Origin: Dastarcus helophoroides
Lineage: Eukaryota > Arthropoda > Insecta > Coleoptera > Bothrideridae
Direction: 5' to 3'
Assembly: GCA_028583605.1 (NCBI GenBank)
Contig: CM053326.1
Span: 50,476,619 to 50,540,618 of the forward strand
Length of the DNA: 64,000 nucleotides
This document shows, in pieces, positions 34,853 through 58,701 of this stretch. The notes beneath the pieces are model-generated. The model ran no database searches and was not told the DNA's origin. It saw nothing but the letters and a program-made list of their open reading frames with translations. Both the position numbers and the translations under genes were made by a program. How positions within the stretch are numbered: the stretch's first letter is position 1; each line of letters begins with the position of its first letter.

Positions 34853-34981
34853 TATGATAACGAAGGCTTCCACGGCCAGAGTCAGTACAGGATATACTTC
34901 TTCCGGGATTGAACCGTGTCAAAGAACTACTAAAAGTGTTCGACGTTTCGCCCACCATCGTAGGGGGCTTCTTCAGGAACA
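34853..34981 (-). mobile_element. Family B unit with hammerhead-like 5' end
   Basis: Read on the minus strand, the unit starts with the motif at 34981-34937 and runs ~85 bp further through ACACTTTTAGTAGTTCTTTG, GGTTCAATCCCGGAAG and CTGGCCGTGGAAGCCTTCG to 34853. The same unit occurs as an inverted pair at 58702-58932. The 90-bp tandem repeats begin ~75 bp before the motif (minus sense). Confidence 0.75.
34937..34981 (-). ncRNA. Hammerhead-like ribozyme motif (family B), all helices intact
   Basis: Minus strand 5' to 3': TGTTC (stem I strand), CTGAAGA, one extra A, GCCC (stem II), an 11-base loop, GGGC (stem II), GAAA, then CGTC, then GAACA. GAACA pairs with all five bases of TGTTC. ACGT gives only a two-pair stem III without loop, so a dimeric form would be needed. 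GTC is the preferred hammerhead cleavage triplet. The extra base between CTGAAGA and stem II departs from the canonical core. Confidence 0.55.
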
Positions 34982-35054
34982 AAGAAAGAAAAATAGATGA
35001 AAAGATGAATATGAGGGAATATGCAAAAAAGAAAAAGGCCAATTTCAAAACATC

Positions 35055-35470
35055 AGAGCACGGTAACTCACTATGTCCACCATACCAGAGGCGAAACTCC
35101 TTCTGAATTAAAAATTGGTTCAAAGGATAAGAAAGTTTAGGTAGAAGAGCACGGTAACTCAGTATGTCCACCATACCAGAGGCGAAACTCTTTTGAATTG
35201 AAACTTGGTACAAAGGATAAGAAAGTTTAGACAGAAGAGCACGGTAACTCAGTATGTTCACCATACCAGAGGCGAAACTCTTCTGAATTGAAAATTGGTA
35301 CAAAGGATAAGAAAGGTTAGACAGAAGAGCACGGTAACTGAGTATGTCCGCCATACCAGAGGCGAAACTCTTCTGAATTGAAAATTGGTACAAAGGATAA
35401 GAAAGTTTAGACAGAAAAGCACGGTAACTCAGTATGTCCACTATACCAGAGGCGAAACTCTTCTGAAAAA
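35055..35470 (-). repeat. 90-bp tandem repeat, about five units
   Basis: Units start AGAGCACGGTAACTCA at 35055, 35146, 35236, 35326 and, as AAAGCACGG, at 35416. Each contains CCATACCAGAGGCGAAACTC. Because 90 is a multiple of 3, the minus strand is open for 197 codons (34848-35441) as a 30-residue repeat (LSYRALLSKLSYPLYQ, FSIQKSFASGM). I treat this as a by-product, since it continues into the family B unit, which is non-coding elsewhere. Confidence 0.9.
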
Positions 35471-35969
35471 AAAGAAGACTAAAATTTCTATAAAAAGAAA
35501 TCAGAGAAAATTTAAAATTTCTACAAAAAATTGTGTAATGAAAAGTATTCAGAAAATTTTCAGAAAAAAACTCGTAATCGGAATTGGGGGTGCTGCATTT
35601 CTACAGTGCCTATACGCCAGCTGCCACTGACCACTAGTGTTCTCATGTTTAGCAATTTAGCACTTTGGGATTCAATCCAAAGAAGAGCGATTCGCCTAGA
35701 GTTTGACCGATTCGAAACACTGGAGCACAGGCCAATGGTTTGTGTTCTACACGTAAATCCATGTGTGATGCTCACAGGAACTAATAGGTTTGATTTGCCC
35801 AAGGGCAAGGTTTTTGAAGGATACAAGACAAACGGGGACAAGAGCAAGTGCAGTCCAGTTTGACACGGTGAGGACTTCTATTTACGGAGACTCTTCTTAC
35901 TATAGAGCTTCCAAACTGTGGAATTCGTTATCGAACCGAATTTTTCTTGGAAATTACAAGCTACCCTCA

Positions 35970-36103
35970 GTATCTCTCTGAAGATGATCGAAACGCGTAT
36001 AGCGCAACCTTTGTTGTGTTTTCTAATCTTTCTTGGTTTCACTGGACAAGATTTGTATTTCAATATTTGAAGACAACCAAGGACTAGTTCATTCCACCAG
36101 AAG
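35970..36103 (+). mobile_element. Family A half-element (single arm)
   Basis: Only one arm is present. It starts GTATCTCTCTGAAGATGA (at the tip) and ends AAGGACTAGTTCATTCCACC. Stem II of the ribozyme-like motif is deleted (GATGATCGAAACGCG). It interrupts Jockey-like copy 2. It shows that the single arm, starting at the motif, is the basic unit of the family. Confidence 0.85.
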
Positions 36104-36215
36104 CGATCCTTATTTAAAAAAGCGTTTCATCGCCATCTATCCTTGTTTCCTCATTCTACCCGCAGTGCTTCCAAGGCATAAGAGGGTTGTTTGTAAGTGG
36201 ATTTAAAAAAGAAAT

Positions 36216-37283
36216 CGTGTAATTTAGCTATTGTAGTCAACGAATTCTGGCACCGTGCATTATACTTCAAGAACCAGTGTTTGATAGACATCCTAAAATA
36301 ATGACTTAATTTTGAAATATGACGTTATTGCACTTTGCGAAGACAAAATCGGAGCTAGTTATAAAATACTATTAGTAACATTTCATTTGTAGTGTCATGT
36401 TAAACCTTACAATTGCGTTATTTATTGCAAGATTTTAAACGCGAAGATCAAAGCGTGTTACTTTTGTCGTTTTATCATGTTGAGACATATTTTGTCTTCA
36501 TCAAAGACCACTGCTCCCTAATATATTTTGGGACTAATCTAAGACAATGAAGAAAGAAAAAAAGGAGGGGTAATTTTAGCAAAGGTTGATATAATTATTA
36601 CGAGGGATTACATGTGCAGAGTAAATTTTGCTTTTAATTATGACAACTCACAGTTCCTTGACTGAAACAAGTGATTAAGGAGATGATGTACCACTACAGA
36701 AGTCTCTGAACTTTCCAAAGATAATCAGCAGCTGTTGAAATTACACCAACATGTTCCGTTTTTGTGATGTCATCGGTCTAATTAGTAGGAACTAAATTAC
36801 AAGTACCTGGTTGACACTAGATTTTCAAACGACTGGTCTGATGTGCTGATAATTGATAGTCAAAAACATATGCAAGTGATCTCTAAAGTCTGGCTGGCTT
36901 TAATCCAAATGAATATATAAATATTACAGATAAATGGACAATAACGTCTTACCTAGACTAAACCTGTCGGATGCTAATAAAATATATGTTTTGCTAAGCA
37001 TTTTTTAAAGGTTTTCCTCAAAGGTGCATTTATTGAACTTGTGTTTTAATTTTTATACATATTTCAGAAGTCAATTAAATTTTTCTTGATAACTTATTGT
37101 GAAACTTAAACTTATCCACATAACATTCAAGTATAGGTGGGTAAAGTGGTGTCGTGCTTTCATAAGTTACTTGGACTTTTGAATCTTTTAATTTTTTTTC
37201 ATTTCTATTTTAATTTGCTTTTATATTATGTATCTTCGCTTTATGAAATTAAAAAAATTGGTAACAACATCTTGAATGTTTTT
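36216..37283. other. Apparently single-copy AT-rich DNA
   Basis: Nothing recognised: no repeat copies, splice-bounded frames or RNA genes. The composition is less simple than the TCGAAATTT tracts. Confidence 0.35.
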
Positions 37284-37412
37284 TATGGAAAGGACTGGTC
37301 CTTGGTTATCTTCAAAAATTGAAATACAAATCTTGTCCCTTGAAACCAATAAAAATTAAAAACCACAACAAAGGTTGTTCTGCCAAGCTATCATCTTCAA
37401 AGAGATACTGAA
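37284..37412 (-). mobile_element. Foldback family A, left arm only
   Basis: GGACTGGTCCTTGGTTATCT through AAACCACAACAAAGGTTG to CCAAGCTATCATCTTCAAAG. The GCGTTTCGACAG part of the tip is deleted. Confidence 0.8.
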
Positions 37413-39557
37413 GTCAAATATAGGGTAAACCATATAAAAATGGGAAGTTTAAATAAGAAATTTTCTAACATATCATCGTTTCAAGTTTACCCTCAAAATT
37501 TCGACTTCAATTTCAAGATCCCGGCTTTAAATTGGAATATAAATGTTGTATTTCTGTTGAAATTTTAACCAAAATTCCCAATTTCTAGGAGAAATTAGAA
37601 ATAGCGAGCTTTTATCGCAAATTTTGAGAAAAAAAGCCAAATCCAAGAATTTTTGGAAGTTTTATAAAGTCGAAATCGTAAAAAATCATTAGAATTTGAA
37701 ATTTCAAGAAAAAATTCGCATATTTAAATTAAAGTGAAATTTAAAGGAAAAAATTCAAGAAAACACGAAATTTTTATTAATAACTTCAAAAAATAAATGT
37801 ATCAGATTATAAAAGGGAAAATCCAAGTTTGAGAAAAAACAAACAAATTTTGAGTGTTTGTTCTGAAGAAAATATTGCAACTTTTGTAAAAAATCTAATT
37901 TGCAAATAAAATTGCCACGAAACAGGGCTTCAATGTAAAAGACTCCACTGCTCGAGTCCAAATTTGCACTAGCATATAAAATTTTTAATTTGAACTCGTA
38001 ATTTTAGGAAAAGATAAATATTTTGAGAAAAAGGTCCAAATTTCAAGAGCCGAAACTTTGAAAAGAAAAATTCAAGTTATACAACTTAAAATCCAATTTG
38101 GCTCGAAATCTTGGGAATAAAGTCAACATTTTCCTAGAAAGAGTGGACATTGTAAATTTCTAACCGAGCTTTCAACGTTCTTTAAAGTAATTTTGAGATG
38201 AAATTTGCACGAATTTGTGTAACATTTTGAAAAGGAGATTTTTAAAAAAAATCCCAAGCTTTTAAAGTAAAAATTATTTTAAGAACATACAAATTCAGCG
38301 AAAAATAAACCGTTATTTTTTTGGGTTTTGTTCCGATTTTCGTTCCTGTAAAAATAACGGTTTTCTTTGGTTTCCGATTTTCGGTTCAGTTCCGGTTCGA
38401 AAACCTGATTTTATTATTAAAGTAACGTTGAGGTTAATTTTCGAACTATGCATTTGTTACTTGCGCCATCTATGTGGCTATATGCAAAACTAAAAGGACA
38501 TCCCTCGTGTATGCACGTTTTATATTTGGGGGGATGGGTTCCTAAGCAAAATATCTAAATAGATGCTTTTTTGCTGTTAAATGTCTGCTTATTTTCTGTG
38601 AGAACCTTTCTAGGACCTTGTGACGATTTATAATTTTCTTCGGTTCTTTTTTTAGATTGAAAATAGTGCTAAGTTATTTTGAAACTGCCGCATATTAAAG
38701 TAATATGGATTTGCAATATTTGGGGACAAAAACTCAAACGAAGTCAATTAGAGTATAAAAAAAATGAAACAAAAAATATTTTCTAGGGCCAATAACTTCA
38801 TTGACTGAAACCAGCTTTTTTTATCCAAAGAATATATTCTAAATAGATGTCCCATTATATGCGATATATTAATTATCAAAGATTTTCATTTGATTGATTT
38901 ATGAAGCGGAAACTTATTGATTTAAGACGTAAAAATTGAATTTTAAATATACAAACGTTACACTTTGATTAAATTGGCTATCACTATGTAACACCTTGCA
39001 GCTAAGATCAAAAGAATTATTGGTTTATTTATCACAATGTTCGCCAAGATTTGTAATCTGTTTTATAGTAAGCGATGTAAAAATAACGCGATATTATTAG
39101 AAAACTGAACATATAACTAACCTAGACATTATAAGAAAGATTTTGGGTAAGGCACGCTCAGAAAATGGATCGGGCAATTGTCAAATATTCAATCAGAATT
39201 AAAAGTTAAATCAATTTCTATTTTTATATTTAATTTTTTATGTTAATCCTTGACATCGTCTAGTTAGCAAGTAAAATATAATGTATGTAACTTTAAAAAT
39301 TTTTATATTGAGGCTTGCTTCTTATTATTTTTTAACATTTAATTATATTAGAAATAATAGATATAGAACGTAGTATACTTTTAACTAAATGTGATGATGG
39401 AATTAGTAACATAAAACAAATTACGTAGAAACTGGGGAACTAAAGAATGTATCAAAAATACACAAAGTATACTGGTTGTTTAAGGTTAGAAAAAAAGTAC
39501 ATTGTATCAAAATAAAGTACTATTTTATTATTTACTGCGAATTTTACACTTCTACCA
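37413..39557. other. AT-rich DNA, partly TCGAAATTT-like
   Basis: About 37440-38300 is simple sequence of the TCGAAATTT type. About 38310-38405 is a run of GGTTTTC/CCGATTTTCGG/GGTTC motifs, possibly a diverged hAT-type element end. The remainder looks single copy with no gene. Confidence 0.35.
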
Positions 39558-40095
39558 AAAATTGAACGACAGATCTTGTCCCCTGAAACTAACAACATTC
39601 AACATTCGATATTTAATATTTCTAGAAATTTCGCCTTTTTCCTGTAAATTTAACTTTTTTTTTAAATTTCGACTTTTTTTCTTGAAATAGTCGTTTATTT
39701 TGAGATCTTATTCTCAAAATTTCAACTCTTTGTTTAATTTGACTTTCTCTGAAAAATGTTGAATTTTGTTGTCCATTTCGAGAATTCCTCGAATTGTCGC
39801 TTTTTTTATCAAATTATTCCTCCGAACATATTTGGCTTTTTCTGAAAATTTCGACCGAATCTGATTTTTCAGGAATTTTCATTGGTTTCTCAAAATGTGC
39901 CTTTTTCACCAAATTTTAATTTTCATCTCAATATTCGATATTTAATATTTCTAGAAATTTTGACTGAAACCTTTTCCTCAAAATGCGTCTTTTCTGAAAT
40001 TTCATTTTTATTTTAAAAATCCTACTTTGGGAGCTTTGTTTCAAAATTCCTTTATTTATTTCGAAATTCCGCCATTTTCCTAATATGTGTCTTTG
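39558..40095. repeat. Family A scrap and TCGAAATTT simple sequence
   Basis: A ~35-bp family A scrap (AGATCTTGTCCCCTGAAAC, ~39571) precedes T-rich simple sequence. ATTCGATATTTAATATTTCT (39605) recurs at ~39931 and in diverged form at ~45898 and ~46478, so the simple-sequence blocks share longer units. Confidence 0.6.
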
Positions 40096-41272
40096 TCGAA
40101 TTCTTCTTGCATACGACATTGTTGGCGATGGGCATAGTTTCTCTATGGACCAATAGGTGGTAGTACTAAGAGTCACTCGCTTGACGCCTGTAAATGTTTT
40201 AGTACTTACTTGTCTGAACATTTGTTAGCATTCGAGTTGGATATACCAAACTGAAGAGATCTAAGCAGATCGAAGCCGGTATTTGATTTCCAAACTTCAA
40301 ATCTAATAAATGTTCAAACCTATTAGTCTGTGCATTAGAATCCTTGTCGTCTGGAATCTTTTTCCTAGAGAGCAACCGCTTTGCTAGGTGGTAGTTTCAA
40401 CTGTTGGTAGTTCAGCTACCTATGATTCGCCACTATAATACACGCCTGGAGGAAGGGGTGCATGAATTTGTAGTCTAGGTTGCATTCTACTTGCATACGA
40501 CATTGTTGGCGATGGCCATAGTTTCTTTATGGACCAATAGGTGACGATAGCTACTAAGAAGTCACACGTTGATGTCCGTGAATTCTTTAGTACTTACTTG
40601 TCGGAACATTTGTTAGCATTCGAGTTGGATATACCAAACTGACCAGATCTAACAAGATCGAAACCGGTATTTGGTTTCCAAACTTCGAATCTAATAAATG
40701 TTCAAACCTATTGGTCTGTGCATTATAGAATCCTTATCTTTTGGGAATTCTCCTAGAAAGCAACCGCTTCGCTAGGTGGCAGTGTCGTCTGGGATCTTTT
40801 TCCTAGAGAGCAACCGCTTTGCTAGGTGGTAGTTTCAACTGTTGGTAGTTCAGCTACCTATGATTCACTCACTATTCACGCCGCCTGGAGGGCTGCATGA
40901 ATTTGTAGTCTAGATTGCATTCTACTTGCATACGACATTGTTGGCGATGGCCATAGTTTTCTGTGTGGACTAATAGGTGGCGGTAGTACTAAGAAGTCAC
41001 ACGTTGATGTCCGTGAATTCTTTAGTACTTACTTGTCGGAACATTTGTTAGCATTCGAGTTGGATATACCAAACTGACGAGATCTAACAAGATCGAAACC
41101 GGTATTTGGTTTCCAAACTTCGAATCTAATAAATATTCAAACCTGTTGGTCTGTGCATATTAGAATCCTTGTCTTCTGGGAACTTTCCTAGAAAGCAACC
41201 GCTTCGCTAGGTGGCAGTGTCGTCTGGGATCTTTTTCCTAGAGAGCAACCGCTTTGCTAGGTGGCAGTTTTT
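40096..41272 (-). repeat. Dispersed repeat C, about three tandem units
   Basis: Minus orientation. GCATACGACATTGTTGGCGA occurs at ~40108, 40494 and 40928 (spacing ~386 and ~434). The right end has an extra short duplication of TCTGGGATCTTTTTCCTAGA. It directly adjoins the 200-bp satellite region and mirrors the plus-oriented copies at 43727-44440. Confidence 0.9.
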
Positions 41273-41505
41273 CACAAAAATTATCTTTTCCTTTTAAAAT
41301 TTCGAATTTATAAAATTCGACTTCTTTTATCAAACATAACTTTCACAAAACTTAAAATTTTTATTTGAAAATTCATCTTTTTTTCCGAAAATCTCACCAT
41401 TTCTCAAAATTTGGACCTTTTTCGCCTTTCTCATCTGACTGCTTGCTTATTAAAATTTATCTCGAAATTTGGCCCATCTTCCGATAAAAATGCCAAAATC
41501 TAAAG
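41273..41505. repeat. Simple-sequence spacer
   Basis: T-rich TCGAAATTT-type DNA between repeat C and the 200-bp satellite. No gene. Confidence 0.5.
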
Positions 41506-43725
41506 AAACATATCTATGTAGAATTTGTGAAAAATGTTTTCTTGGAAAATTTTCTATAAGGACAAAAATTACGAGAAAATTTTGTTTGTAAATTTCAACT
41601 CTTTAATCCAAATGGAAGATTCAAGCTTTTTTGTCAAAATTTCAACGTTTATCTCAATATTGGACATACTCTAACTCAGAGTGGGACGTCTGTCTCTCTA
41701 ACTCGAGTAATCAAGTCAGAAATTGTGAAAAATGTTTTTTTTTGGAACATTTTCTATAAGTAGAAAAATTACGAGAAAATTTTCCTAGTAAATTTCAACT
41801 CTTTAATCCAAATGGAAGATTCAAGCTTTTTTGTCAAAATTTCAACGTTTATCTCAATATTGGACATACTCTAACGCAGGGTGGGACGTCTGTCTCTCTA
41901 ACTCGAGTAATCAAGTCAGAAATTGTGAAAAATGTTTTTTTTTGGAAAATTTTCTATAAGTAGAAAAATTACGAGAAAATTTTCCTAGTAAATTTCAACT
42001 CTTTAATCCAAATGGAAGATTCAAGCTTTTTTGTCAAAATTTCAACGTTTATCTCAATATTGGACATACTCTAACTCAGAGTGGGACGTCTGTCTCTCTA
42101 ACTCGAGTAATCAAGTCAGAAATTGTGAAAAATGTTTTTTTTTGGAAAATTTTCTATAAGTAGAAAAATTACGAGAAAATTTTCCTAGTAAATTTCAACT
42201 CTTTAATCCAAATGGAAGATTCAAGCTTTTTTGTCAAAATTTCAACGTTTATCTCAATATTGGACATTCTCTAACGCAGGGTGGGACGTCTGTCTCTCTA
42301 ACTCGAGTAATCAAGTCAGAAATTGTGAAAAATGTTTTTTTTTTGGAACATTTTCTATAAGTAGAAAAATTACGAGAGAATTTTCCTAGTAAATTTCAAC
42401 TCTTTAATCCAAATGGAAGATTCAAGCTTTTTTGTCAAAATTTCAACGTTTATCTCAATATTGGACATTCTCTAACGCAGGGTGGGACGTCTGTCTCTCT
42501 AACTCGAGTAATCAAGTCAGAAATTGTGAAAAATGTTTTTTTTTGGAAAATTTTCTATAAGTAGAAAAATTACGAGAAAATTTTCCTAGTAAATTTCAAC
42601 TCTTTAATCCAAATGGAAGATTCAAGCTTTTTTGTCAAAATTTCAACGTTTATCTCAATATTGGACATACTCTAACTCAAAGTGGGACGTCTGTCTCTCT
42701 AACTCGAGTAATCAAGTCAGAAATTGTGAAAAATGTTTTTTTTGGAACATTTTCTATAAGTAGAAAAATTACGAGAAAATTTTCCTAGTAAATTTCAACT
42801 CTTTAATCCAAATGGAAGATTCAAGCTTTTTTGTCAAAATTTCAACGTTTATCTCAATATTGGACATTCTCTAACGCAGGGTGGGACGTCTGTCTCTCTA
42901 ACTCGAGTAATCAAGTCAGAAATTGTGAAAAATGTTTTTTTTTTGGAAAATTTTCTATAAGTAGAAAAATTACGAGAAAATTTTCCTAGTAAATTTCAAC
43001 TCTTTAATCCAAATGGAAGATTCAAGCTTTTTTGTCAAAATTTCAACGTTTATCTCAATATTGGACATTCTCTAACGAAGGGTGGGACGTCCTGTCTCTC
43101 TAACTCGAGTAATCAAGTCAGAAATTGTGAAAAATGTTTTTTTTTTTGAAAATTTTCTATAAGTAGAAAAATTACGAGAAAATTTTCCTAGTAAATTTCA
43201 ACTCTTTAATCCAAATGGAAGATTCAAGCTTTTCTGTCAAAATTTCAACGTTTATCTTAATATTGGACATTCTCTAACGCAGGGTGGGACGTCTATCTCT
43301 CTAACTCGAGTAATCAAGTCAGAAATTGTGAAAAATGTTTTTTTTTGGAAAATTTTCTATAAGTAGAAAAATTACGAGAAAATTTTCCTAGTAAATTTCA
43401 ACTCTTTAATCCAAATGGAAGATTCAAGCTTTTTTGTCAAAATTTCAACGTTTATCTCAATATTGGACATACTCTAACTCAGAGTGGGGCGTCTGTCTCT
43501 CTAACTCGAGTAATCAAGTCAGAAATTGTGAAAAATGTTTTTTTTTTGGAACATTTTCTATAAGTAGAAAAATTACGAGAAAATTTTCCTAGTAAATTTC
43601 AACTCTTTAATCCAAATAGAAGATTCAACTTGTTTGTCAAATTTTCGACGTTTATCTCAATATTGGACATTCTCTAACGCAGGGTGGGACGTCTGTTTCT
43701 TTAACTCGAGTAATCAAGTCAGAAA
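41506..43725 (+). repeat. 200-bp satellite, about eleven units
   Basis: GTGGGACGTC-type starts occur at 41681, 41881, 42081, 42281, 42482, 42682, 42881, 43082, 43283, ~43483 and 43683. Units contain CTCGAGTAATCAAGTCAGA and TTAATCCAAATGGAAGATTC and differ at few positions. Two junction types alternate irregularly: CTAACTCAGAG and CTAACGCAGGG. A second marker is GGAACATTTT versus GGAAAATTTT. The first unit (41506-41680) is the most diverged. No frame is maintained. Confidence 0.95.
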
Positions 43726-43726
43726 A

Positions 43727-44440
43727 ATTCTAATGCACTAACCAATAAGTTGAACATTTAGTAGATTCGAAGTTTGGAAACCAAACACCGGTTTCGATCC
43801 TGTTAGAAGATCTCGTCAGATTGGCATATCCAACTCGAATGCTAACAAATGTTCCGACAAGTAAGTACTAAAGAATACACAGACGTCTAGCGTGTGACTT
43901 CTTAGTAGCACCATCTATTGGTCCATAGAGAAACTATGGCCATCGCCAACAATTTCGTATGCAAGTAGAATGCAACCTAGAGTACAAATTCATGCGTAGC
44001 CCTCCCCAGGTGTGTTGTATAGCGAATCATAGGTAGCTGCTGACCTACCCAAGAGTTGAAACACTGCCACCTACCGAAGCGGTTGCTCTCCTAGGAAAGT
44101 CCCAAGAAGACAAGGATTCTAATGCACAAACCAATAGGTTTGAATATTTATTAATTAGATTCAAAGTTTGGAAACCAAATACCGGTTTCGATTTTGTTAG
44201 ATCTCGTCAGTTTGGTATATCCAACTCGAATGCTAACAAATGTTCCGACAAGTAAGTACTAAAACATTCACAGACGTGTAGCGTGTGACTTCTTAGTACT
44301 ACCACCTATTGGTCCATAGAGAAACTATGGCCATCGCCAACAATGTCGTATACAAGTAGAATGCAACCTCGACTACAAATTCATACAGCCCTCCAGGCGT
44401 GAATAGTGAATCATAAGTAGCTGAACTACCAACAGTTGAA
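43727..44440 (+). repeat. Dispersed repeat C, nearly two tandem units
   Basis: ATTCTAATGCACTAACCAAT (43727) recurs as ATTCTAATGCACAAACCAAT (~44117). It is in the opposite orientation to the copies at 40096-41272, so the satellite is framed by inverted repeats. The first unit begins abruptly after the satellite's AAGTCAGAAA. Confidence 0.9.
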
Positions 44441-44746: not shown

Positions 44747-44965
44747 AAGGATTCTAATGCACAGACCAATAGGTTTGAACATTTATTAGATTCGAAGTTT
44801 GGAAACCAAAGGTCGGTTTCGATCTTGTTAAATCTCGTCAGTATATCCAACTCGAATGCTAACAAATGTTCTGACAAGTAAGTACTAAAGAATTCACAGA
44901 CGTCAAGCGTGTGACTCTTAGTACTACCACCTATTGGTCCATAGAGAAACTATGGCCATCGCAAA
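44747..44965 (+). repeat. Dispersed repeat C, partial copy
   Basis: From ATTCTAATGCACAGACCAAT to GAAACTATGGCCATCGC, then unrelated sequence. A short stretch at ~44995-45035 (TAGTATGCGGAAACAAG, AGATGGCAATGAAC) resembles the reverse of the Jockey-like 3' end. Confidence 0.8.
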
Positions 44966-46974: not shown

Positions 46975-47205
46975 ATTCCAAAAATTGAAATACAAAACTT
47001 GTGTCCTGAAACCAAGAAAGGTTAAAAAACACAACCAAGGTTGCTCTAACGCGTTTCGACAGCCAAGCTATCATCTTCAGAGAGATACTGGTGATAGCTT
47101 GGCTGTAGCAACCTTTGTTGTGTTTTGTACTTTGTTGGTTTCAAGGGACAAGTTTTGTATTTCGATTTTTAAAGATAACCAAGGACCAGTGCGTTCCACC
47201 ACAAA
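46975..47205. mobile_element. Foldback family A copy with an intact antisense tip
   Basis: Left arm with complete tip (46980-47090), short right tip, and a right arm ending GTGCGTTCCACCA. The motif on the minus strand is described next. Confidence 0.9.
47044..47084 (-). ncRNA. Hammerhead-like ribozyme motif (family A), intact
   Basis: Minus strand 5' to 3': CTCT (stem I), CTGAAGA, extra T, GATAGC, loop TTG, GCTGTC (stem II, one G-U pair), GAAA, CGCGTT, AGAG (pairs with CTCT). Every element of the consensus is present. Stem III (ACG with CGT) has no loop in the monomer. Confidence 0.55.
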
Positions 47206-47349
47206 AAAAAAGAAATTATGGAATTTTGATAGAAGCGAAATTTTCAGAAAACATCCAAATGGACAAAAAATTTAAAATTTTCCAGTTAAAGCTGAGTGTT
47301 GAAATAATCAAAAATACAAATTTTGAAAAAAGTGCCAAAAGACCAAAAT

Positions 47350-48650: not shown

Positions 48651-48654
48651 ATCT

Positions 48655-48970: not shown

Positions 48971-49011
48971 GTGAACTTTGCAATTGCAGTCTAGTTTTCA
49001 TTAGATTCTAA

Positions 49012-49944
49012 TGAAATTGGATTTCAATTGCATCGTAATAAACTTGTATATATTCGTATATACAAGGCTTATTATCTCAATATTATAGTGTTCATTATAC
49101 TTTTAGAAGTTCCTTTATATTCTTGAAAGTACATTTAATTATCCTAAGGATTGAAGTTCAGATAATTTTTAGTGGTAACGCCTATGTAATAAATACACTC
49201 CCAAGTTCGGAAACTATTGATTAAATAATAAGAAACATGTTAAGAAAAAGAGCTTTAAAGCGTAAAATTGGATTAGAGGGAACGCTTGCCCCAGTTCATA
49301 CTTTCCGTTTTATTTACTTGTAAACTCATTTTGTAAACAATAGAAGCGTTATTTTTTTTTGTAGTCTAAATTAGTCACGATACTTTTATCGGTTTTTTTT
49401 TGGGTTTTTTTCGATTATTTGCTCATTGACACTCAATTTTGACTTCGGATTCGTGTTCAGTGGGAAAAAAAACCCTAGAAAATCATAGTCCGGCCCCCAG
49501 CATAAACCACTATTTTTTTTTGTAGACCTGTGTTATTATTAAATTAAAAAGTCATCAGAAGTTATTTTGTAAACTTGAAAACTGTTTAACACTTTGCCAA
49601 AATTTATTAATTCCCAACAATGAACTTGATTAACATTTACTACCTTTTTATAGCCTATGGACATAGGTAGACTTTCCTTCAAGAGGTGGGGGGTATAACC
49701 ATCATTCATGGGCAAAAAAAAAAACCCGAGGAGATCCAATTTCTAGATTAAAACCGAAATTTCAAAAAGGAGCCAAACTTTAAGAAAAAACCTTTCGGAA
49801 AGGTTCGAGAAATGTCGAAATTTGGCAAAATTCAATTCGCAAAATTCGAAATTTCACAAAATTAAAAATTTTGCGAAATTCGAAATTTTACAACATTCGA
49901 AATTTTGCAAAATTCGAAATTTCGCAATATTGTTGAGGTTGTTT
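49012..49944. other. AT-rich DNA, nothing recognised
   Basis: Mostly single copy. About 49740-49935 is simple sequence built on AAATTTCGCAAAATTCG-like units (~20 bp). Confidence 0.4.
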
Positions 49945-50060
49945 AGAGAGATACTGATGAAGATGCTAGATTGGCTATCGAAACGCGTTAGAGCAACCTC
50001 TGTTGTGTTTTTTAATCTTTCTTGGTTTTAGGGGACAAGATTTGTATTTTAATTTTTGAA
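49945..50060 (+). mobile_element. Family A half-element (single arm)
   Basis: Begins AGAGATACTGATGAAGATG, so the core reads CTGATGA. GGCTATCGAAACGCG follows. The arm ends ATTTGTATTTTAATTTTTG. Stem II is partly scrambled. Confidence 0.8.
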
Positions 50061-51000
50061 ATTCCAAATAAAACCAAAACTGTTATTGCATACATCGAGG
50101 AATGGGACTGTGCAATACCGCAGGAATCAAAGGCTAGTTAGACAATGTAAAAATTTGATATTAAATTAAACGAGCACATTTGCAGATAAAAAAATTTTAA
50201 TTTTCTTTCGTCATCGATAGGTGAACGAATTTTTTTAAATGGGTGACTAAAAAACAAAGCAGGATCAATGGGTCCGAGCAATTTTTTATAAAACATATCT
50301 TCCTTTGTATCTGAAAATTATGTCTTATTTCATAGGCGCACTGTACACATTTAACATTATTATTTTAATTTTTAACGGTATGCAACTTGCACATCACCAA
50401 AGTGATATATCTCAGCTGTAAATTGGTGCAATTTCAAAAGCAATGTCAAGTAAAATGTTATTAAGCTGCATCATCATTGATTGTAGTTTTAGTAATTTTA
50501 AATAAACTGTCATGTCATAATTAAATTTGTTGGAGAAAATATTTTACGAAAATAAAATAATAGGCAAAGTCTTGAGTTTAAAATGAAATCTCTTAACTAT
50601 TGAAGTATTAGTATATAGAAATAGCTGTAGGTACAAATATCATAATATAAACCAAACAATTCGATTAATTCGATAATTAAATGATGTGTCAATTCATTAA
50701 TCATTTTGTGAAAGTTGGCTTTAAAGCTCTATAAAGACAACGCTCTGAAATGCCAAATCATCAAAGTGCAAATTAAATTGCACCTTCTGTTGAATAATTT
50801 AATATTATCTTACTAATTGTTATTTAAATTTAGCATCTAGCCTTAATTAAAGATCTCTAATACGATGAGCACTTGACATTCACTGAACTTCATAATTTAA
50901 ATTACGGCCACCCGCAACCGTTGTTTACTTTTATATTAAAAGTTGATAACATTAAATATTCTTCATGGTAGACCCTTACTGACCGGAAATATTATGTTTT
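50061..51000. other. Apparently single-copy AT-rich DNA
   Basis: Nothing recognised. Confidence 0.35.
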
Positions 51001-51151
51001 TTTCAATTTATTTAACATTTCTTCGGCCCAGTTTGGAAATATTTAAATTTTTATGGTTTGTCGCATTTCAAAAACTGTTTAGAAAATTGTCAACAAACCA
51101 TAAAAATTTAAATATTTCCAAACTGTGCCGAAGAAATGTTAAATAAATTGA
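51001..51151. mobile_element. Foldback family D copy, near-perfect arms
   Basis: Arms 51001-51060 and 51093-51151 are reverse complements with very few mismatches (TTTCAATTTATTTAACATTT against its complement). The loop is ~32 bases. The ATG frame at 50943-51146 is a by-product. Confidence 0.9.
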
Positions 51152-51234
51152 AAGAAACATTAAATATTTTACAAAAACTGTGAAATTTCACCGCCAATAA
51201 ACGTAGAGAATGTTAGATCTCGTATAGTGAGACA

Positions 51235-51480
51235 TAATCGCCAGACTGTCACCACTACCCGATTTTTAGCATAGACGGTACGCGTGGATACAATAATACA
51301 AGTCTCAAAGCAGTTTTGCAGCGATTTTCCGAGCTGGATAACTCTGCATTGCTCATTCGACGGATTTGCGCAACGGAGCTACATAGCTGAAGCCAAAAGC
51401 TTCTAGAGGGAGTGAGGAATCCTCGTATTTTACCATTTTATTTACAATATTGTGTTTTTATCAAAATTAATAGAAAGCTT
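51235..51480 (-). repeat. Dispersed relative of the 310-bp repeat
   Basis: On the minus strand, TATTGTATCCACGCGTACCG, GTCTATGCTAAAAATC and GGGTAGTGGTGACAGTCTGG match the end of the 310-bp unit, and AAATAAAATGGTAAAATACG matches its middle. It carries ~90 bp (around CGGATTTGCGCAACGGAGC) not in the tandem array. Confidence 0.65.
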
Positions 51481-51522
51481 TCACATTTATAATCTACACC
51501 TGACGTTTCACGAACTTATTTT

Positions 51523-51556
51523 ATTCTCTTTACTTATGTTAATAAGTAAAGAGAAT
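51523..51556. repeat. 15-bp perfect hairpin
   Basis: ATTCTCTTTACTTAT and its exact reverse complement, separated by GTTA. There is no T-run and no gene nearby to suggest a terminator. Confidence 0.7.
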
Positions 51557-52061
51557 CAATTTGAGATTTCAGGTCCACTTCAAATGTAATACTGTCTGCA
51601 AGCAATATAATAGGTTATTGGTAATGTCGTCGTTAGTTCCTCATTCATTTTATGGCTTTACTGCAATTCCCTACTAAGATGTCACCCTTTTGATATATAA
51701 TATGTTCGTAATTTTGGATATTCCACTCGATTGCGATGTAGTCGGTGGTCCCTTCAATTCTAAATTACATGGTCATTTTCTTTCGGGGAAAAATTTCCTG
51801 AAAATAATAACCCTCTCTTTTATTGAAAGAGGAAACTCATTCAGTTTAGGTCTTCGTTCATAAATTATAATATAATACAATAAATTCATAAATAAAACAT
51901 TAACAAAATTAACCGTTTATTTATATTTTCCTTTTTTAATAGATCTACTTATTTACTGCCCTACTTGTTTCATTATATACAGGGCGTCTCCATTTTAAAT
52001 GCCTTAAATGAAGCAGGTGATAGAAAAAGTAATTTTAAGGAAAAAGTTTGCTATGAATGTA

Positions 52062-53423
52062 CAGGGTGAACCATAAATAATGGTACACAGAGCAATGGTG
52101 AATTTTTCGAATAAAAATAAGATGATTTAGCTACATTCACCTTATACCAAAAGTTGATATTAACAGAGATGCAGGGTGTCAAATTTGAAAAAAAAATCGA
52201 TTTTTTCGAATAATTATTCAATGAATTGTAATATAGGCACGAAGTTTGGCACTAAGGGGTTTCTTAAATCGACAAACTCTAATTTGCTAACATATCACCA
52301 AAAGCTGATAGGGGGCGCTACTTGCGCTATCCTGCATAATTCTAAATCATCATAATTTTTTGTGTACCCACATATATGAATTTTAAATGGGTTATTTTAT
52401 TTCCCCATATTTTTTACGTAAAAAAGGTGTACTTTCTGAAAGTTGATACGAGCAACCGTTTCCAAGATATTTGCCTTTAAAGCTTGACGTGCCTTGGTTT
52501 TAAATTACTAAGATATTAAATTTTCGAAGTAGTCTTCAAAAAAAAAGTAATCATACGACAGCTTTGAAACTAATTTATGTCAAATATTACTTTGCTAATA
52601 ATATTATTACCTAAATTTTGAAAATTTCAATAAAGAAAATCCAAAAAATTTAAACGTAATTTATTTTCTAACATAGAATGTGAGATATGATCTCTGAGTC
52701 CACACAAGAAAATTTTAATAGTGTGGGGGTCAAAGCAGATATTTGGAGATAAATTTCAATAAAAGACACCCAGATTTTTAATTGTTTACGATCCCTTTAC
52801 ATGAAAAAATATCATTTCCCACATACTTATTTTTGAAAATAAATTTTGTTTTGGTATTTTATTTAAATTTGCTTTAGAAATTTAAAAAATAATGTCAGTA
52901 GAGTAATATTTGATATAAACTACTTTGAAGTCAGTTTTATCACTTTTATTTTGAAACCTATTGCGAAAAATTCAGATTTACATAATTTAATATAAACGTA
53001 CAGCCAACTTTGAAGGCAAATATCTTGAAAACGGTTGCTTGTACCAACATTTAGAAAGTATACCTTTTTTACGTAAAAAATGTAGGTAAATAAAAATATC
53101 TATTTAAAATAAGTGTACACGAGGACACAAAAAAGTTATGATGCTTTAGAATAATACAAGGTAGCGCAGGTGGCGCCCCCTATGAGTTACTGACAATCTG
53201 TTAGCAAATTAGAATTTCTTGACCAAAGAATCCCCCCTATGCCAAATCTCTTGTCTATAATGAAATGTGTTCATCATTTATGTGAAAAAATCACATTTAT
53301 TTTCCAACTTTGACACCCTGTATCTCTGTTAATATCAACTTTTGGTATACGTGGCTAAATCACGTTATTTTTATGCGAAAAATCTACTCTTGCTTTATGT
53401 ACTATTACTTACGGTCCACCCAG
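52062..53423. mobile_element. Inner foldback element (1.36 kb)
   Basis: Ends CAGGGTGAACC and GGTCCACCCAG, with TA on both sides. Arms of several hundred bp pair: CCAAAAGTTGATATTAACAG with its complement at ~53330, CCGTTTCCAAGATATTTGCC with ~53015-53035, and TACGTAAAAAAGG with ~53065. It sits inside the left arm of the outer element, so it is younger. Confidence 0.85.
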
Positions 53424-53772
53424 TATACTCTTAATAAAGAAGATACTAGGCGTTAAAATTTGAATAAAAAAAAAAGTTTTTTTGTTTCACTATCAAGTTT
53501 TCAGAGATATTTAAACTAAATTTTGCACACTTCGTGTGTAGATGAAGGATGATAAAATAAGACAAAATTAAGTTTCTACCTCAACCAGTGGCGGAGTTAC
53601 GGGTAATCTGGGATATTGTTTTGAAAAAAAAAGTATTTCGTCACTAAACTAAATGAAATAAAATACAATTTTTGGATCAAGCATTTAATTTTGAAGAAAA
53701 GTTTCCTCTTGACAATATTTTTGGCATTCATTTCCTTATGTTTTTCCTAGGAACTGTTCGAATACAGTGTAT

Positions 53773-54358
53773 TGTAACGCAATGTAAATAGGTGGAATAG
53801 AATTGTATAATTTAGTAAATAAAAAAGTTTCTAGAAGGATCTGATAAGGGAAAAGCGACCGCGATAACGAGACAAATGGCAGATAAGCGTTCCAGAAACT
53901 TCGGGAACGATAAACCTTATCTGCCGAAAAGTTCTAGAAGCCGGGGGCCAAAACTATAAAAGGCGGTCAGCTTTCCCTCAAGGAAGTTTGAAGGTGGACC
54001 GAGTAGCCTTCTTTAGAGTGACTGCTGTCGATCACGGACGCCTGCCATCGGAGGTGAATTGAGTAGCTTTCGATCGGCGGTCTCCGCAGCTCACAAAATT
54101 ATCAACACAGTAATGTTCACTAAAAGACGGCGGTCAAAGGAACGAAAGTTTCGGAACAGCGTTAAACTACCAAAGAACCATAATGTCCTCAAGGAAGTCA
54201 GTTAGAAGTCAGTGTAGTTAGTAAGTTAGCAATTAGTGAATAAGTAGGGAGTTACTGTTCAGTTGAAGTGTGCCGAGTTAATTTGGTAATAAAGTGAGAC
54301 TGATCTTTAAATAATCAGTGACTAACCCAAAGAGGGGTAAGTTTAAGATGCTACAACA
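53773..54358 (+). mobile_element. Solo LTR 3 (586 bp, with an extra 211 bp)
   Basis: Starts TGTAACG and ends CTACAACA. The flanks GTAT and GTTT differ at one base, so the target duplication is imperfect. A 211-bp step separates two copies of CCTCAAGGAAGT (53976-53987 and 54187-54198), an insertion or duplication absent from the other LTRs. A TATA box (TATAAAAGG, ~53955) and AATAAAGTG (~54288) are kept. Confidence 0.8.
53890..53907 (+). promoter_or_regulatory. Four-unit heat shock element in LTR 3
   Basis: TTC, GAA, TTC and GAA, each separated by exactly two bases, in a larger inverted repeat bounded by GGCAGATAAG and CTTATCTGCC. It lies ~48 bp upstream of the TATA box. Confidence 0.6.
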
Positions 54359-54892
54359 GTTTTGAATAAAGCTGACTCTTAACATTCCTTCATGTGTCGC
54401 TATTGTCACAATCGTGACAGAATTTAAATATTTGGGACTTTCCTTAGTGAAAGTACGAGTGAGAGTGATGTTTTTTCTAAAACCAACAACATGACGCAAC
54501 CAGTGGCAGATGCGGAAAAATGTCAAGAAAAAATTTTTATTCAGATTTAAATCCTTTACCTAAGACAGATATTTTATTTCATTTCCTTTATTGCGGTTTT
54601 TCTACAATAATACCACAGATTTACGCATAACTTCGCCACTGGTTGAGATAGAAACTTAATTTTATTTTATTTTGTGATTCTTCATCCATACACCATGTGT
54701 ACAAAATTTGGTTTAAATATTTGAGAAAAGTTAAAAGTGAAAAAGTAAAAACTTTTTTTTTAATCCAAATTTGAATACTTTGGATCTATTTTATTAAGAG
54801 TTTCCGGATACATGTTCATAGAAAACTTTTTGCTTAAAATTATTTTTTCTATGACCTGTGTCATTTAAGGCACTTAAAACGAGGACACCCTG

Positions 54893-55014
54893 TAGATAAA
54901 ACACAAAATATATTAACAATAAATGAATTTAGTTAATCTTTACTTGCTCGAATAGTTTATATTCATAATTCGGAAACTGTATCAACAAGAATGAAACAAA
55001 ATGACTAATAATAT
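54893..55014. other. Spacer
   Basis: AT-rich. Nothing recognised. Confidence 0.3.
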
Positions 55015-55373
55015 TGATTACGTGCGTTATCGGTTCGAATTGATACACGTGATGGATTATTCCCACTTTATTACTGAACTCAACTTGGATCACCATAATT
55101 GACAATTAACTTATTATTGACTTCTACTAACTCAATAATTACACTGATTCTAACTGACTGACTCGAGGGAAAGCTGACCGCCTTTTATAGTTTTGGCCCC
55201 CGGATTCTAGAACTTTTCGGCAGATAAGGTTTATCGTTCCCGAAATTTCTAGGAGCTTGTTTCGTTATCGCGGTCGCTTTCCCCTTATCAGATCCTTCTA
55301 GAAACTTTTTTTAATTTACTAAATTATAAAATTCTATTCTAAATCCTATTTCATCTATTTACATTGCGTTACA
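55015..55373 (-). mobile_element. Solo LTR 4 (359 bp)
   Basis: On the minus strand it starts TGTAACGCAATGTAAATAG and ends CGTAATCA, with ATAT duplicated on both sides (55011-55014 and 55374-55377). It contains GATAAGGGGAAAGCG, a TATAAAAGG box (~55182-55190) and a three-unit heat shock element at 55237-55249. It is closest to LTR 3 in sequence but in the opposite orientation. Confidence 0.85.
55237..55249 (-). promoter_or_regulatory. Heat shock element in LTR 4
   Basis: Three alternating units with two-base spacing, read on the plus strand as TTCCCGAAATTTC (the inverted pattern is symmetric). It is upstream of the TATA box in the LTR's orientation. Confidence 0.55.
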
Positions 55374-55377
55374 ATAT

Positions 55378-55844
55378 ATTCACCATGTTAGGGTACTTCA
55401 TCAATTACTTTTTATAAATTTTCTTTAAATTTCTGTCAAATGTTACCAATAGTGTTATCCATACACCTACAAAATTAAAAGACCCTTGCCGGTGCCCAAG
55501 CCGAGATTTTCAATGTCAAATTTACGATTTTTAACATAGAAGGCAATGTTTCCCAGCTTTTTATTTTTTGGTAGCGATACACTTTTGATATTGTGTAAAA
55601 AAAGGCGATGCACATTCATGGAATTTTTTAGCAATCAAAAAAAAAATCATCCAAACTACTTCCAAGTTTTGATGACCAAAAACGTTCTCATAATCTAATG
55701 AGCTCCCAATAAATTCTGGTGACTACCAAAAAAAAACAAAAACATTCTTATGACCTCCACAAATAATTTTGACGACTGAGAAAAATTTTTAAAAATGCTG
55801 TTATTATTATTCATTTGTAATTTTTATGATCTCGTATTTTTTTT
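55378..55844. other. AT-rich DNA, nothing recognised
   Basis: No repeat of the window and no supported gene. Confidence 0.3.
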
Positions 55845-56182
55845 GGGTGGAACGGACTGACCTTGGTTATTTTCAAAAATTGAAATACAAATATTGTCCC
55901 CTGAAACCAAGAAAGATTAAAAAACACAACAGAGATTACTGGCTAACGCGTTTCGATAGCCAAACTACCATCTTCTTGGTTATTTTCAAAAATTAAAATA
56001 CAAATCTTGTTCCTTGAAACCAAAAAAGATTAAAAAAACACAACAGAGGTTGCTCTAACGCGTTTCATCTATCATCTTCTTTCTGAAGATGATAATTTGG
56101 CTACCGAAGCGCGTTAGAGCAACCTCTGTTGTGTTTTTTAATCTTTCTTGGTTTCAGGGGACAAGATCTGTATCTCAATCAC
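55845..56182. mobile_element. Foldback family A copy, left arm duplicated
   Basis: Two left arms in tandem (GGTTATTTTCAAAAATTGAA at ~55865 and TTATTTTCAAAAATTAAAAT at ~55980) are followed by one right arm. The sense core is CTGAAGA, but GAAA reads GAAG. Confidence 0.85.
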
Positions 56183-56269
56183 ATATTTTGGCGTCACACC
56201 TAGAAGTTTCCAACGACAATCTGGTGTGGCGTGACACACCCATTGGGAATCAGTGACGTAAAGTACAGG

Positions 56270-56640
56270 GCAGTATTGGTCAAAGAATGTTGTTGGAGAG
56301 ATTTCAAATTATTGCTGCCAAACCTTTCGATAAATTCGGATAAAAAAGTAATATATTATGTAGGATGATATGAATAAAATGGTAAGATTTTAAGAGGTAC
56401 GTAACCGCAATTTGAATTTACAAATTTCGTGGATTCGATGCTTCATTCCGCGCGTTAAGGAAACATCTTGAAGTAATGGCAACATAGTACTTCTACTGCT
56501 CTTAGATGCCTTTGGCTAAAGGTCCGTTGTGTAATTTTTTTCCTTTATAAGCGTGCAGTGTTGTCGGCTCAGAAAAGCTACTGCAAAACGGCTTGGGGAT
56601 TTGTTATGTATCAAGGCGGATACAATAACAATAAAAACTT
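56270..56640 (+). repeat. Dispersed relative of the 310-bp repeat
   Basis: AAAAAAGTAATATATTATGT, GGATGATATGAATAAAATGG and AAGGAAACATCTTGAAGTA match the 310-bp unit. ACTGCAAAACGGCTTGGGGA (~56580) matches the extra segment of the 51235-51480 copy. The long form is therefore the dispersed element, and the 27.4-kb array is an amplified part of it. Confidence 0.65.
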
Positions 56641-56964
56641 TTTACTACGATTACCGCCGGTGAATAATCTTAAGATATCTTGAATTTTCTCACAGGTTTA
56701 ATCAATAGTAGTAGGTATATGATTTGACAAAAATTGTATTTTTTCACATATATTCTGTTTTAGAAAAAAAATAATAAAAACTATAACAAGAAATATAACA
56801 AATAAATTTGAAAATTCCAGCATGTTTGACAATATATTCTGTAATTTTAAAAGAAAGACAAACAATTTTGTTTCAATACTAAAACTATTCAGTTTTGCTT
56901 TGCTTTACATGAAAGCATTGCTGGAAAAAATCTTTACTTAATTTTTTTGTTGATGAAATTGACT
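56641..56964. other. AT-rich DNA, nothing recognised
   Basis: No gene or repeat is seen. Confidence 0.3.
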
Positions 56965-57172
56965 GGTCCTTGGTTATCTTCAAAAATTGAAATACAAATC
57001 TTGTCCCCTGAAACCAAAGAATATTAAAAAACACAACAAAGGTTGCTCTATCGCGTTTCGACAGCCAATCTATCTGAAGATGATAGCTTGGCTGTCGAAA
57101 CGTGTTAGAGCAACCTTTGCTGTGTTTTCTAATTTTTCTTGGTTTCAGGGGACAAGATTTGTATTTCAATTT
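56965..57172. mobile_element. Foldback family A copy
   Basis: Left arm to GACAGCCAATCTAT, then a sense tip: CTGAAGA (57074-57080), GATAGC/GCTGTC, GAAA, CGTGTT, AGAG. The stem I upstream strand is lost (CTAT in place of CTCT). Right arm to ATTTGTATTTCAATTTC. Confidence 0.9.
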
Positions 57173-58042
57173 CTTCACTTACTATAATTAACTGAAGGTT
57201 TAACAGTTATTGTTTTTGTTCAAATTCCCAATGCATTTGACAGTTGACCATTTGAACAAAATAAAATTTCAGGAACGTTGACGCCTAAAGATCGATTTAT
57301 ACTGATAGTCAAGACATTCGTTTTAAAAATCAAATATTTATATTGATTTAGAAACTGCGGTAAAATAACATAGTTATAATTCTCGTAGCCTGTCAATTTC
57401 TGTAAACGCAGAACCATTACCATTTAAAATGTTCGCATGCAAACATACTCTTTTTATGGGGGCATTAGGAAAGTGAAATATCTTCTGAAGGCTATAAATG
57501 CATTCGTAATGAACTTGATAATATCTAAATTTAGTTAAACATGGGGTATATTCGACTTTCAACTCTAAGGAAATCGAGAATCGGTAGACTAACAACATTC
57601 TATATTCAGTTTTTATGGACGGCAATCGTATAAAGAAAATATCAACCAGAAACACGCAAGTTGAGGATAATTTGAAAAGAAAAAAATTAAAGGTATGGGC
57701 ATTGCAAAAAGTCTGATATAGTCAAGTTATTGCATTTTGGATTGAGTATCTTCCACCACTAATGGAAGAAAAAATCGATTTCTCACCAAGGGCTTATATT
57801 CAACGACTTGATTAATTGAATGAGTCAATTTATTGAATAGGTAAATTGTTTCCAAATACCTCTGAGGTATAACTTAAATGTTGAGTTAGTAAATTGCTCT
57901 TTAATAATTTATGGATGATAAAAACACGTAACAAGGTGCTTGACACCTTAGAAAATGAATTATGACTGTTTGAATGTTACAAGTTGACCCTAAAGAACTT
58001 TTTATGAAATTGAAGCTGATATTTTTAAAGTTAGGTAATAAT
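57173..58042. other. Apparently single-copy AT-rich DNA
   Basis: Minus frames at 57220-57423 and 57374-57655 have no start-context or splice support. No gene is called. Confidence 0.35.
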
Positions 58043-58300
58043 TTTGGTGGAACGAACTGGTCCTTGGTTATTTTCAAAAATTGAAATGCAAAACTTGTCC
58101 CCTGAAACCAAGAAAGATTAAAAAACACAACAAAGGTTGCTCTAACGCGTTTCGACAGCCAAGCTATCATAGTATCTCTCTGACGATGATAGCTGGGCTG
58201 TCGAAACGCGTTAGAGCAACCTTTGTTGTGTTTTTTATTCTTTCTTGGTTTCAGGGGACAAGTTCTGTATTTTAATCTTTATATCGGTCTGTCAAGTTTT
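58043..58300. mobile_element. Foldback family A copy, nearly full length
   Basis: Left arm from TGGTGGAACGAACTGGTCC (58043) to the antisense tip (CTGAAGA lost on that side), then an intact sense tip and right arm. It is the best reference copy for the family. Confidence 0.9.
58176..58216 (+). ncRNA. Hammerhead-like ribozyme motif (family A), intact
   Basis: CTCT (58176-58179), CTGACGA (58180-58186; the variable seventh core base is C), extra T, GATAGC (58188-58193), loop TGG, GCTGTC (58197-58202), GAAA (58203-58206), CGCGTT (58207-58212), AGAG (58213-58216, pairs with CTCT). It has stem I of 4 pairs and stem II of 6 including one G-U. Stem III could form between two copies through the palindrome ACGCGT. 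Confidence 0.55.
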
Positions 58301-58700: not shown

Positions 58701-58701
58701 A

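Follow-up and report, generated by a model that had tools for sequence, protein, structure and literature searches.

The question raised by this locus is to what kind of element two short repeat families, termed A and B, belong, when both carry a motif resembling a hammerhead ribozyme, and whether this motif is able to cleave. The earlier note on the window (viz. the whole stretch of 64,000 nucleotides that was analysed) claimed that A and B are unrelated in sequence but share one layout, consisting of a stem I strand, CTGANGA, one extra base, stem II, GAAA, a tiny palindromic stem III, the H17 base and the second stem I strand. All three sequences on which this was based were located at the positions and on the strands given for them, the layout is common to both families, and sequence inspection agrees with the pairing described for stem I (4 of 4 in A; 5 of 5, TGTTC/GAACA, in B). 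The lack of relationship likewise holds, as the local score between A and B is 15, in comparison to a mean of 15.1 for shuffled sequences, with 165 of 300 shuffles scoring at least as high. The A motif at 47044-47084 (minus) reads CTCT-CTGAAGA-T-GATAGC(TTG)GCTGTC-GAA-ACGCGT-T-AGAG, the copy at 58176-58216 differing from it by CTGACGA and one loop change, and the B motif at 34937-34981 (minus) reads TGTTC-CTGAAGA-A-GCCC..GGGC-GAA-ACGT-C-GAACA. The features of the two families in the window are as follows.

5296..5494, minus strand: half of a family A element in which the segment that holds the motif is repeated in tandem (period 43 bp, 5368-5494), from repeat and profile matches.
19486..19705, plus strand: family A element with a short minus half and a long plus half, from profile and end classes; the third A motif copy of the window, with a stem I of 3 bp, lies inside it at 19565-19603.
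34855..34993, minus strand: family B PLE pseudo-LTR with the tail (long) end, from profile; its end sequence is the same as in B pairs with TSDs.
34937..34981, minus strand: hammerhead motif of family B with an ATG in loop II; stem I is TGTTC/GAACA and C17 is predicted to lie at 34942.
35055..35467, minus strand: tandem array of a 90-bp unit on the upstream side of the B pseudo-LTR, the 3' part of a 5'-truncated PLE copy, in the same order as in L050 and at C5:22489010.
46977..47211: family A element of two head-to-head halves, 46977-47090 (minus) being the short end and 47090-47211 (plus) the long or tail end, from profile matches and end classes; it folds as a hairpin of -96.1 kcal/mol, and no TSD of 9 bp or more was found at it.
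47044..47084, minus strand: hammerhead-like motif of family A with its predicted cleavage base T17 at 47048 and the 3' strand of stem I (AGAG) at 47047-47044.
58039..58310: family A element with the 8-bp TSD TTAGGTAA, 58039-58170 (minus) being the long end and 58171-58280 (plus) the other half by profile, with the short-end motif at 58310; its arms of 98 nt are 93% complementary and 9 nt apart, and the fold is -154.3 kcal/mol.
58176..58216, plus strand: family A hammerhead-like motif within the preceding element, predicted T17 at 58212.
58697..58790, minus strand: family B half with the short end, partner of the next feature, from profile matches.
58793..58924, plus strand: family B half with the long or tail end and an altered core (GCGAGACGTC), from profile matches.

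If the resemblance of these motifs to hammerheads were due to chance, then a generic descriptor (core, stem II of at least 3 with 0-1 extra base, stem III of at least 2, stem I of at least 3, position 17 not G) should also find them in shuffled DNA. The descriptor gave 7 matches in the window, viz. three from A, one from B and three from a third family, C, while 60 dinucleotide shuffles of the window gave a mean of 0.083 (5 of 60 with one match and none with more), by which chance resemblance of the motif as such is ruled out. The core features of type I hammerheads, viz. CUGANGA, GAAA, A15.1-U16.1 and H17 (U in A, C in B), are present in both families, which are also abundant in this genome. 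The A pattern has 7453 + 7334 matches genome-wide (about 14,800), the reversed control giving 1 + 0, and the B pattern has 1066 + 1037 (about 2,100) with 0 + 0 in the control. A search of viral contigs gave no match to the A pattern and 6 exact matches to the B pattern, which is by our estimate about the chance level for a 17-base pattern. In both families one base that the canonical core lacks is inserted after A9, ahead of stem II (T in A; A in B), as the earlier note had cautioned. Extra core bases are known from other hammerheads. Natural insertions that follow A6, interrupt GAAA or lie close to C3 are described in PMC3088659, and some of these impair cleavage. The references of PMC6155905 list, by title, a viroid hammerhead with one additional core nucleotide. 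In that viroid hammerhead the additional base reportedly also precedes stem II.

The nature of these elements is clarified by their ends. In B, all 11 strict head-to-head pairs consist of one short and one tail end, and TSDs of at least 8 bp are present in 10 of the 11 (one of low complexity) and of at least 10 bp in 8, none being seen in 200 flank shuffles. For A, a first test, in which 15 of 76 pairs in head-to-head arrangement included an end left unclassed, showed no excess of TSDs (at least 7 bp in 13 of 75 pairs; shuffled mean 8.8, maximum 15). The A tests were repeated with exact end motifs (strict) and with windows reaching 12 bp into the profile match (looser), A copies being sampled from C1:0.16-3.0 Mb and the window. 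In the strict set, 10 of 11 pairs combine a short and a tail end, with a TSD of at least 8 bp in 4 of 11 and none in shuffles. In the looser set, from which 16 of 61 pairs had been removed as tandem duplicates, 34 of 45 pairs are mixed (22.5 expected, p=4e-4) and 11 are not; TSDs of at least 11 bp are found in 9 of the 45 (two of these nine belonging to one tandem array, L025) and are absent in 36, the shuffled mean being 0.23 and the maximum 2. Thus a tail on one end and a TSD occur in A as well, though the TSD excess concerns only a minority of its pairs. The tail is 35 bp in A and 31-36 bp in B, TSDs are often 11-14 bp long, the motif core lies 86-97 nt before the short end, a position typical of Penelope-like elements (PLEs), and stem-loop II includes or adjoins an ATG, which follows C3 by 6 nt in A and by 18 nt in B. 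In PMC3846280, a 31-bp tail on one inverted pLTR, head-to-head junctions and TSDs of 8-10 bp are described, and the one-sided tail on head-to-head halves is reported as a signature unique to PLEs.

A coding parent is present for B. The ORF at L050:1405-2352 has 2465 homologues at E<=1e-3 and is 45% identical, across 314 residues, to P0026, a protein with RVT_1 and GIY-YIG domains; the 316-aa L050 piece itself matched no Pfam family at E<=0.1, and the assignment of an RT and GIY-YIG ORF to B is based on this homology and on the domains of its relatives. In L050, as at C5:22489010, the order is ORF, 90-bp repeats and B pseudo-LTR. Another homologue of this ORF, P0009, has 84 genomic matches, 27 of them without an internal stop, and a B motif lies 300 and 384 bp downstream of two of the open matches (C1:4612731 and C1:4771431). 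No PLE ORF joined to an A terminus was found in the loci examined, 82 of 4578 genomic candidates having been scored. Three PF01541 matches with long alignment (L051, L052 and L053) were rejected as A parents, as their downstream sequences are near-identical and no terminus of A or B belongs to them; the A copies further downstream in L052 were taken to represent a later insertion, since L051 and L053 continue there without A. A further candidate, L054, proved to be B.

Based on these results, the link to PLEs proposed in the earlier note is upheld, as B has a PLE ORF attached and both families show short and tail ends, head-to-head halves and TSDs. A and B are probably the pLTRs of two PLE families, of which B is autonomous (RT and GIY-YIG) and A is short, very numerous and apparently non-autonomous. 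Both would then transpose by PLE chemistry: the A RNA would be reverse-transcribed at a nicked target from either of two start sites, some 35 nt from each other, which would give rise to the short and tail ends. In many cases a second copy would be added head to head, and the insertion would leave a TSD, commonly of 11-14 bp. The motif would be a minimal hammerhead of type I that, if active at all, works as a dimer via its palindromic stem III (ACGCGT, ACGT), possibly in direct-tandem or single-half transcripts, where it could cut multimers or trim 5' ends. With PAc (a Poseidon of Anolis) and Pen2 and Pen3 of Adineta vaga, as described in PMC11167929 and PMC3846280, the families have in common the RT and GIY-YIG ORF (B), the optional 30-40 bp tail, head-to-head pLTRs and TSDs, and with PAc also a pLTR that contains the hammerhead and an ORF start at stem II. 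However, they differ from these elements in that no ORF was found for A, which has some 14,800 motif matches and U at position 17, and in that B has 90-bp repeats between its ORF and pLTR. Minimal type I PLE hammerheads (Cervera and De la Pena 2014; Lunse et al. 2017), as summarised in PMC7761336, have a weak or absent stem III, are dispersed by the thousand across many metazoan genomes and have been proposed to act as dimers. The core and weak stem III are common to A and B, whereas the one extra base before stem II may set A and B apart from the published sets. PLE hammerheads of this minimal kind have already been published by the thousand.

A possible but rather doubtful extension is that A is a SINE-like parasite of PLEs, coding-free and roughly 110-270 bp long, which, while unrelated in sequence to B, has retained or evolved nothing but the cis-features of PLEs (hammerhead, ATG and a pair of RT start sites separated by 35 nt) and would owe its more than ten thousand copies to B-type PLE machinery working in trans. 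In a single genome, which holds many open PLE frames, two sequence-unrelated termini carry the same motif, and its distance from the shared pair of inferred RT start sites is nearly equal in both. This enables a direct test of which terminus features, the hammerhead included, a PLE protein requires in cis, and if B mobilises A, then A would be a natural minimal substrate.

The further proposal of the earlier note, that A and B are small self-cleaving RNA elements, is a putative one. The Rfam hammerhead models, with which the earlier note proposed to check the motif, matched neither A nor B at E<=10, whether the window was scanned as a whole or the copies at 47044 and 34937 were scanned locally. 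The B motif is predicted to fold as a hammerhead. The case for A is weaker, in view of its cleavage base U, extra base, competing pairing and sparse covariation. If A is of the PLE type but its motif is degenerate or coincidental, then the conserved thing would be a hairpin (P2 TGATAGC/GCTATCG closed by CTCTGA/TTAGAG) in a promoter, protein-binding or snap-back structure, without cleavage, a reading to which we give somewhat less than an even chance. Because stem I lies in CTCTCT, the AGAG strand has two possible pairing registers, and the core is lost in one of them; in the A consensus the shifted pairing has a probability of about 0.9 versus 0.05 for stem I, this competing pairing being preferred by 85 of 102 ungapped copies. 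About half of the motif-holding A halves (67 of 135) have an antisense partner at most 60 bp upstream, against which both best window copies fold, and the U at position 17 and the extra base point in the same direction. In folding energy the A consensus motif does not surpass its shuffles (z -0.7); however, minimum-energy folding ignores the tertiary core. Compensatory changes, whose lack of excess in stems I and II the earlier note had named among its grounds for refutation, gave a mixed result: one pair of stem II covaries strongly among 110 A copies (two-sided changes in 27 cells, 25 at that pair, above 500 of 500 shuffles), but stem I shows no excess. The stem II signal argues against mere coincidence, although one old subfamily split may be its source, as do the invariance of T17 in all 110 copies and the presence of core, GAAA, U16.1, H17 and palindromic stem III all at the PLE hammerhead position. 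The mean identity of A copies is 0.936 in the motif core and 0.925 in the following arm, and as the core is no better kept than the arm, the copies decay like neutral DNA. Several of these results speak against efficient cleavage of a monomer, and the predicted A motif may or may not still be able to cut. For PAc, PMC11167929 describes hammerhead mutants without effect on insertion in vitro and no RNA reads ending at the cleavage site, and hence even a real motif may be dispensable for copying. MicroRNA matches overlapping A were below gathering scores and arise from its long hairpins, and a microRNA reading was therefore rejected.

The long near-perfect palindromes, the thousands of short copies and the unrelated DNA between arms would also be expected if A were a foldback or MITE-type DNA transposon with long terminal inverted repeats and no relation to PLEs. 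However, its arms usually end unequally, one of them with a 35-bp extension (34 of 45 pairs; 10 of 11 in the strict set), on which ground this origin was rejected; further, its TSDs are of variable length, resembling those of B, and 68 of the 135 motif-bearing halves have no antisense partner nearby, making such an origin highly improbable. We attach similarly little credence to A and B being animal retrozymes, i.e. tandem non-LTR elements copied via hammerhead-made circular RNA, even though retrozymes and PLEs coexist in the animals analysed in PMC7229834. Metazoan non-LTR retrozymes, as described there, share with A and B a type I hammerhead and, in part, non-autonomy, but they consist of short direct tandem units with canonical type I hammerheads, whereas the motifs of A and B are minimal and often lie in head-to-head halves with PLE tails. 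One short direct tandem array of A was observed, in L025. The retrozyme type is instead fitted by family C of the same window, which has a canonical hammerhead in its 3 descriptor matches, matches Rfam HH9 with 34.4 bits (below the gathering score of 52), and shows a spacing of 342-435 bp, with one of 631.

The hammerhead-like motif that the earlier note had described for two repeat families, viz. family A (window 47044-47084, minus strand, and 58176-58216, plus strand) and family B (34937-34981, minus strand), was found upon inspection of all three sequences at these places and in the layout described (stem I, CTGANGA, one extra base, stem II, GAAA, a tiny palindromic stem III, base 17, stem I). 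A search of the genome (539 Mb in 50 contigs, in which the window is C2:50476619-50540618) gave 7453 + 7334 matches for the A pattern and 1066 + 1037 for the B pattern, with a total of 1 match for A and 0 for B from reversed-pattern controls, and within the window a generic hammerhead descriptor had 7 matches versus 0.083 in shuffles.

Family B is a Penelope-like element (PLE). Its block, as seen in 20 B-pattern loci and other extracted DNA, starts with TTTCTTTGTTCCTGAAG and terminates either at a short end (...GAAGTATATCCTGTA) or, 31 bp further, at a long end (...CTTCGTTATCA). In these loci, which were selected by an intact core and so do not sample B at random, all strict head-to-head pairs (11/11) combine one short with one long end, and 10 of the 11 have target-site duplications (TSDs) of at least 8 bp, that of locus L046 being T-rich. 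Between the two B halves of locus L050 lies a 316-aa open frame, for which a Pfam search with this piece alone found no family; a search at E<=1e-3 gave it 2465 relatives, with RVT_1, PF26215 and, for some of them, GIY-YIG among their precomputed domains, and it aligns at 45% over 314 residues with P0026, a protein with RVT_1 and GIY-YIG. Among those of the 120 listed relatives that have a named organism, insects predominate (bees, ants, beetles and others), besides two from Anolis, one from a lamprey and one E. coli record; for another retroelement, three protein relatives carry an organism name, one being a leaf beetle. The host is thus probably an insect. Further such pieces are present in L034 and L043, and on contig C1 the B motif follows two open PLE frames at distances of 300 and 384 bp. 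At C5:22489010, downstream of a PLE frame interrupted by four stops, come 90-bp repeats, then the B motif and then the tail, which is the order at window 35467-34855. One B pair (L045:1416-1930) is inserted in a family A tail, and its 12-bp TSD, GAACGGACTAGC, is A tail sequence.

A search with a profile of one A arm yielded, at E<=1e-3, 234 matches across the window and 20 ten-kb loci of C1; once the B loci were included, a cut-off of E<=1e-5 gave 241. The A copies mostly begin near AGTATCTCTC and have a short end (..TTTGTATTTCAAT) or, 35 bp later, a long end (..GTCCGTTCCACCA). Among 149 neighbours at most 400 bp apart, the arrangement is head to head for 76, tail to tail for 38 and direct for 35; both ends were classed in 61 of the 76 head-to-head pairs (44 mixed, 9 short/short, 8 long/long). 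After removal of tandem duplicates, mixed ends are seen in 34/45 pairs (22.5 expected, p=4e-4), and a TSD of at least 11 bp in 9/45, two of the nine from the L025 array, versus 0.23 in shuffles; where the ends are exact, 10/11 pairs are mixed and 4/11 have a TSD of at least 8. An optional tail of 30-40 bp, found on one of the inverted pseudo-LTRs (pLTRs), is a published PLE signature (PMC11167929, PMC3846280), and due to its short/tail end pairs and TSDs family A is filed as PLE-type, its coding parent missing. Whole head-to-head A pairs also form tandem arrays at L021:1428-3876 and L028:3865-5458 (periods of ~335 and ~271 bp), and L025:3753-4936 is a retrozyme-like direct array of about seven 170-bp units, each an A half plus a shortened antisense arm.

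Minimal type I hammerheads dispersed in their thousands, and hammerheads of PLE pLTRs for which dimer action was proposed, are already published (PMC7761336), and thus A and B belong to a known kind; a literature search, covering listings and the opening lines of abstracts, found no hammerhead-bearing PLE derivative that is non-autonomous or palindromic, which is weak evidence. In favour of a ribozyme, the same motif architecture is present in two unrelated termini, with core-to-short-end distances of 97 and 86 nt, and an ATG lies 6 or 18 nt after C3; in PAc, a Poseidon element of Anolis, the ORF starts at stem II (PMC11167929). The predicted fold of the B motif consists of hammerhead stems I and II, with stem I pair probabilities of 0.54-0.99. 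The Rfam search that the earlier note had proposed gave, in the window, no match to A or B at E<=10. Of the compensatory changes that it asked for, A shows one candidate pair in stem II (T-A 57, C-G 25, T-G 16, C-A 9; n=109), and stem I has no excess over shuffles. For stem II, percentage paired and two-sided cells lie above 500/500 shuffles, whereas the count of pairs that change on both sides shows no excess (391/500 shuffles reach the observed value), and related copies may exceed shuffles without selection, one old subfamily split being sufficient for this signal. A copies of such age need not be under selection, and weak covariation is therefore compatible with an active source copy.

Against a ribozyme in A, besides the lack of an Rfam match and of an excess in stem I, its motif has U at position 17 and one extra base, the short motif shows no folding advantage over shuffles, and in fold computations a competing CTCTGA/TTAGAG pairing beats stem I in 85/102 copies. 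The 58176 copy lies within a 98-nt arm that is 93% complementary to its partner arm (predicted fold -154 kcal/mol), and for the 47044 copy, pairing of the stem II strand with the antisense arm is predicted. Since 68/135 A halves lack an antisense partner within 60 bp, single-half transcripts can exist. Mutation of the PAc hammerhead left insertion in vitro normal, and the protein helped cleavage (PMC11167929). In our judgement, which is not a computed value, the B motif very probably is, or at least was in an ancestor, a genuine minimal hammerhead; the same estimate makes this somewhat probable for the A motif, and its efficient action as a monomer appears, again by judgement and not computation, unlikely.

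A third repeat in the window, family C, is present in 12 copies, its unit bearing a type I hammerhead of canonical form (ACCAAA-CTGACGA-GATC..GATC-GAAACCGGTA-TTTGGT):

3570-3660, 10258-10326, 10600-10696, 43756-43855, 44150-44246, 44781-44871; minus strand; family C copies
10846-10942, 13051-13147, 13426-13522, 40216-40311, 40603-40699, 41038-41134; plus strand; family C copies

Same-strand neighbours are mostly spaced by 342-435 bp, the strict hammerhead descriptor matches 3/12 copies, and the best copy scores 34.4 bits against Rfam HH9 (E 2.4e-7, below gathering). Family C looks like an animal retrozyme and makes a stronger ribozyme candidate than family A does. A fourth, distinct canonical hammerhead, ACCATG-CTGATGA-GGCC..GGCC-GAAACTAGTC-TATGGT, is present at L013:9160-9202 (plus strand). 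A repeated GIY-YIG protein family was also seen (C12:11090663, C7:2992512 and C10:32337864), with no PLE terminus of its own in the downstream sequence, and may be a mobile element of another kind. Purine-rich simple repeats (AGAGA/GAGAA) form long tracts on one strand at window 6394-9157, 15694-16257 and 25704-26577.
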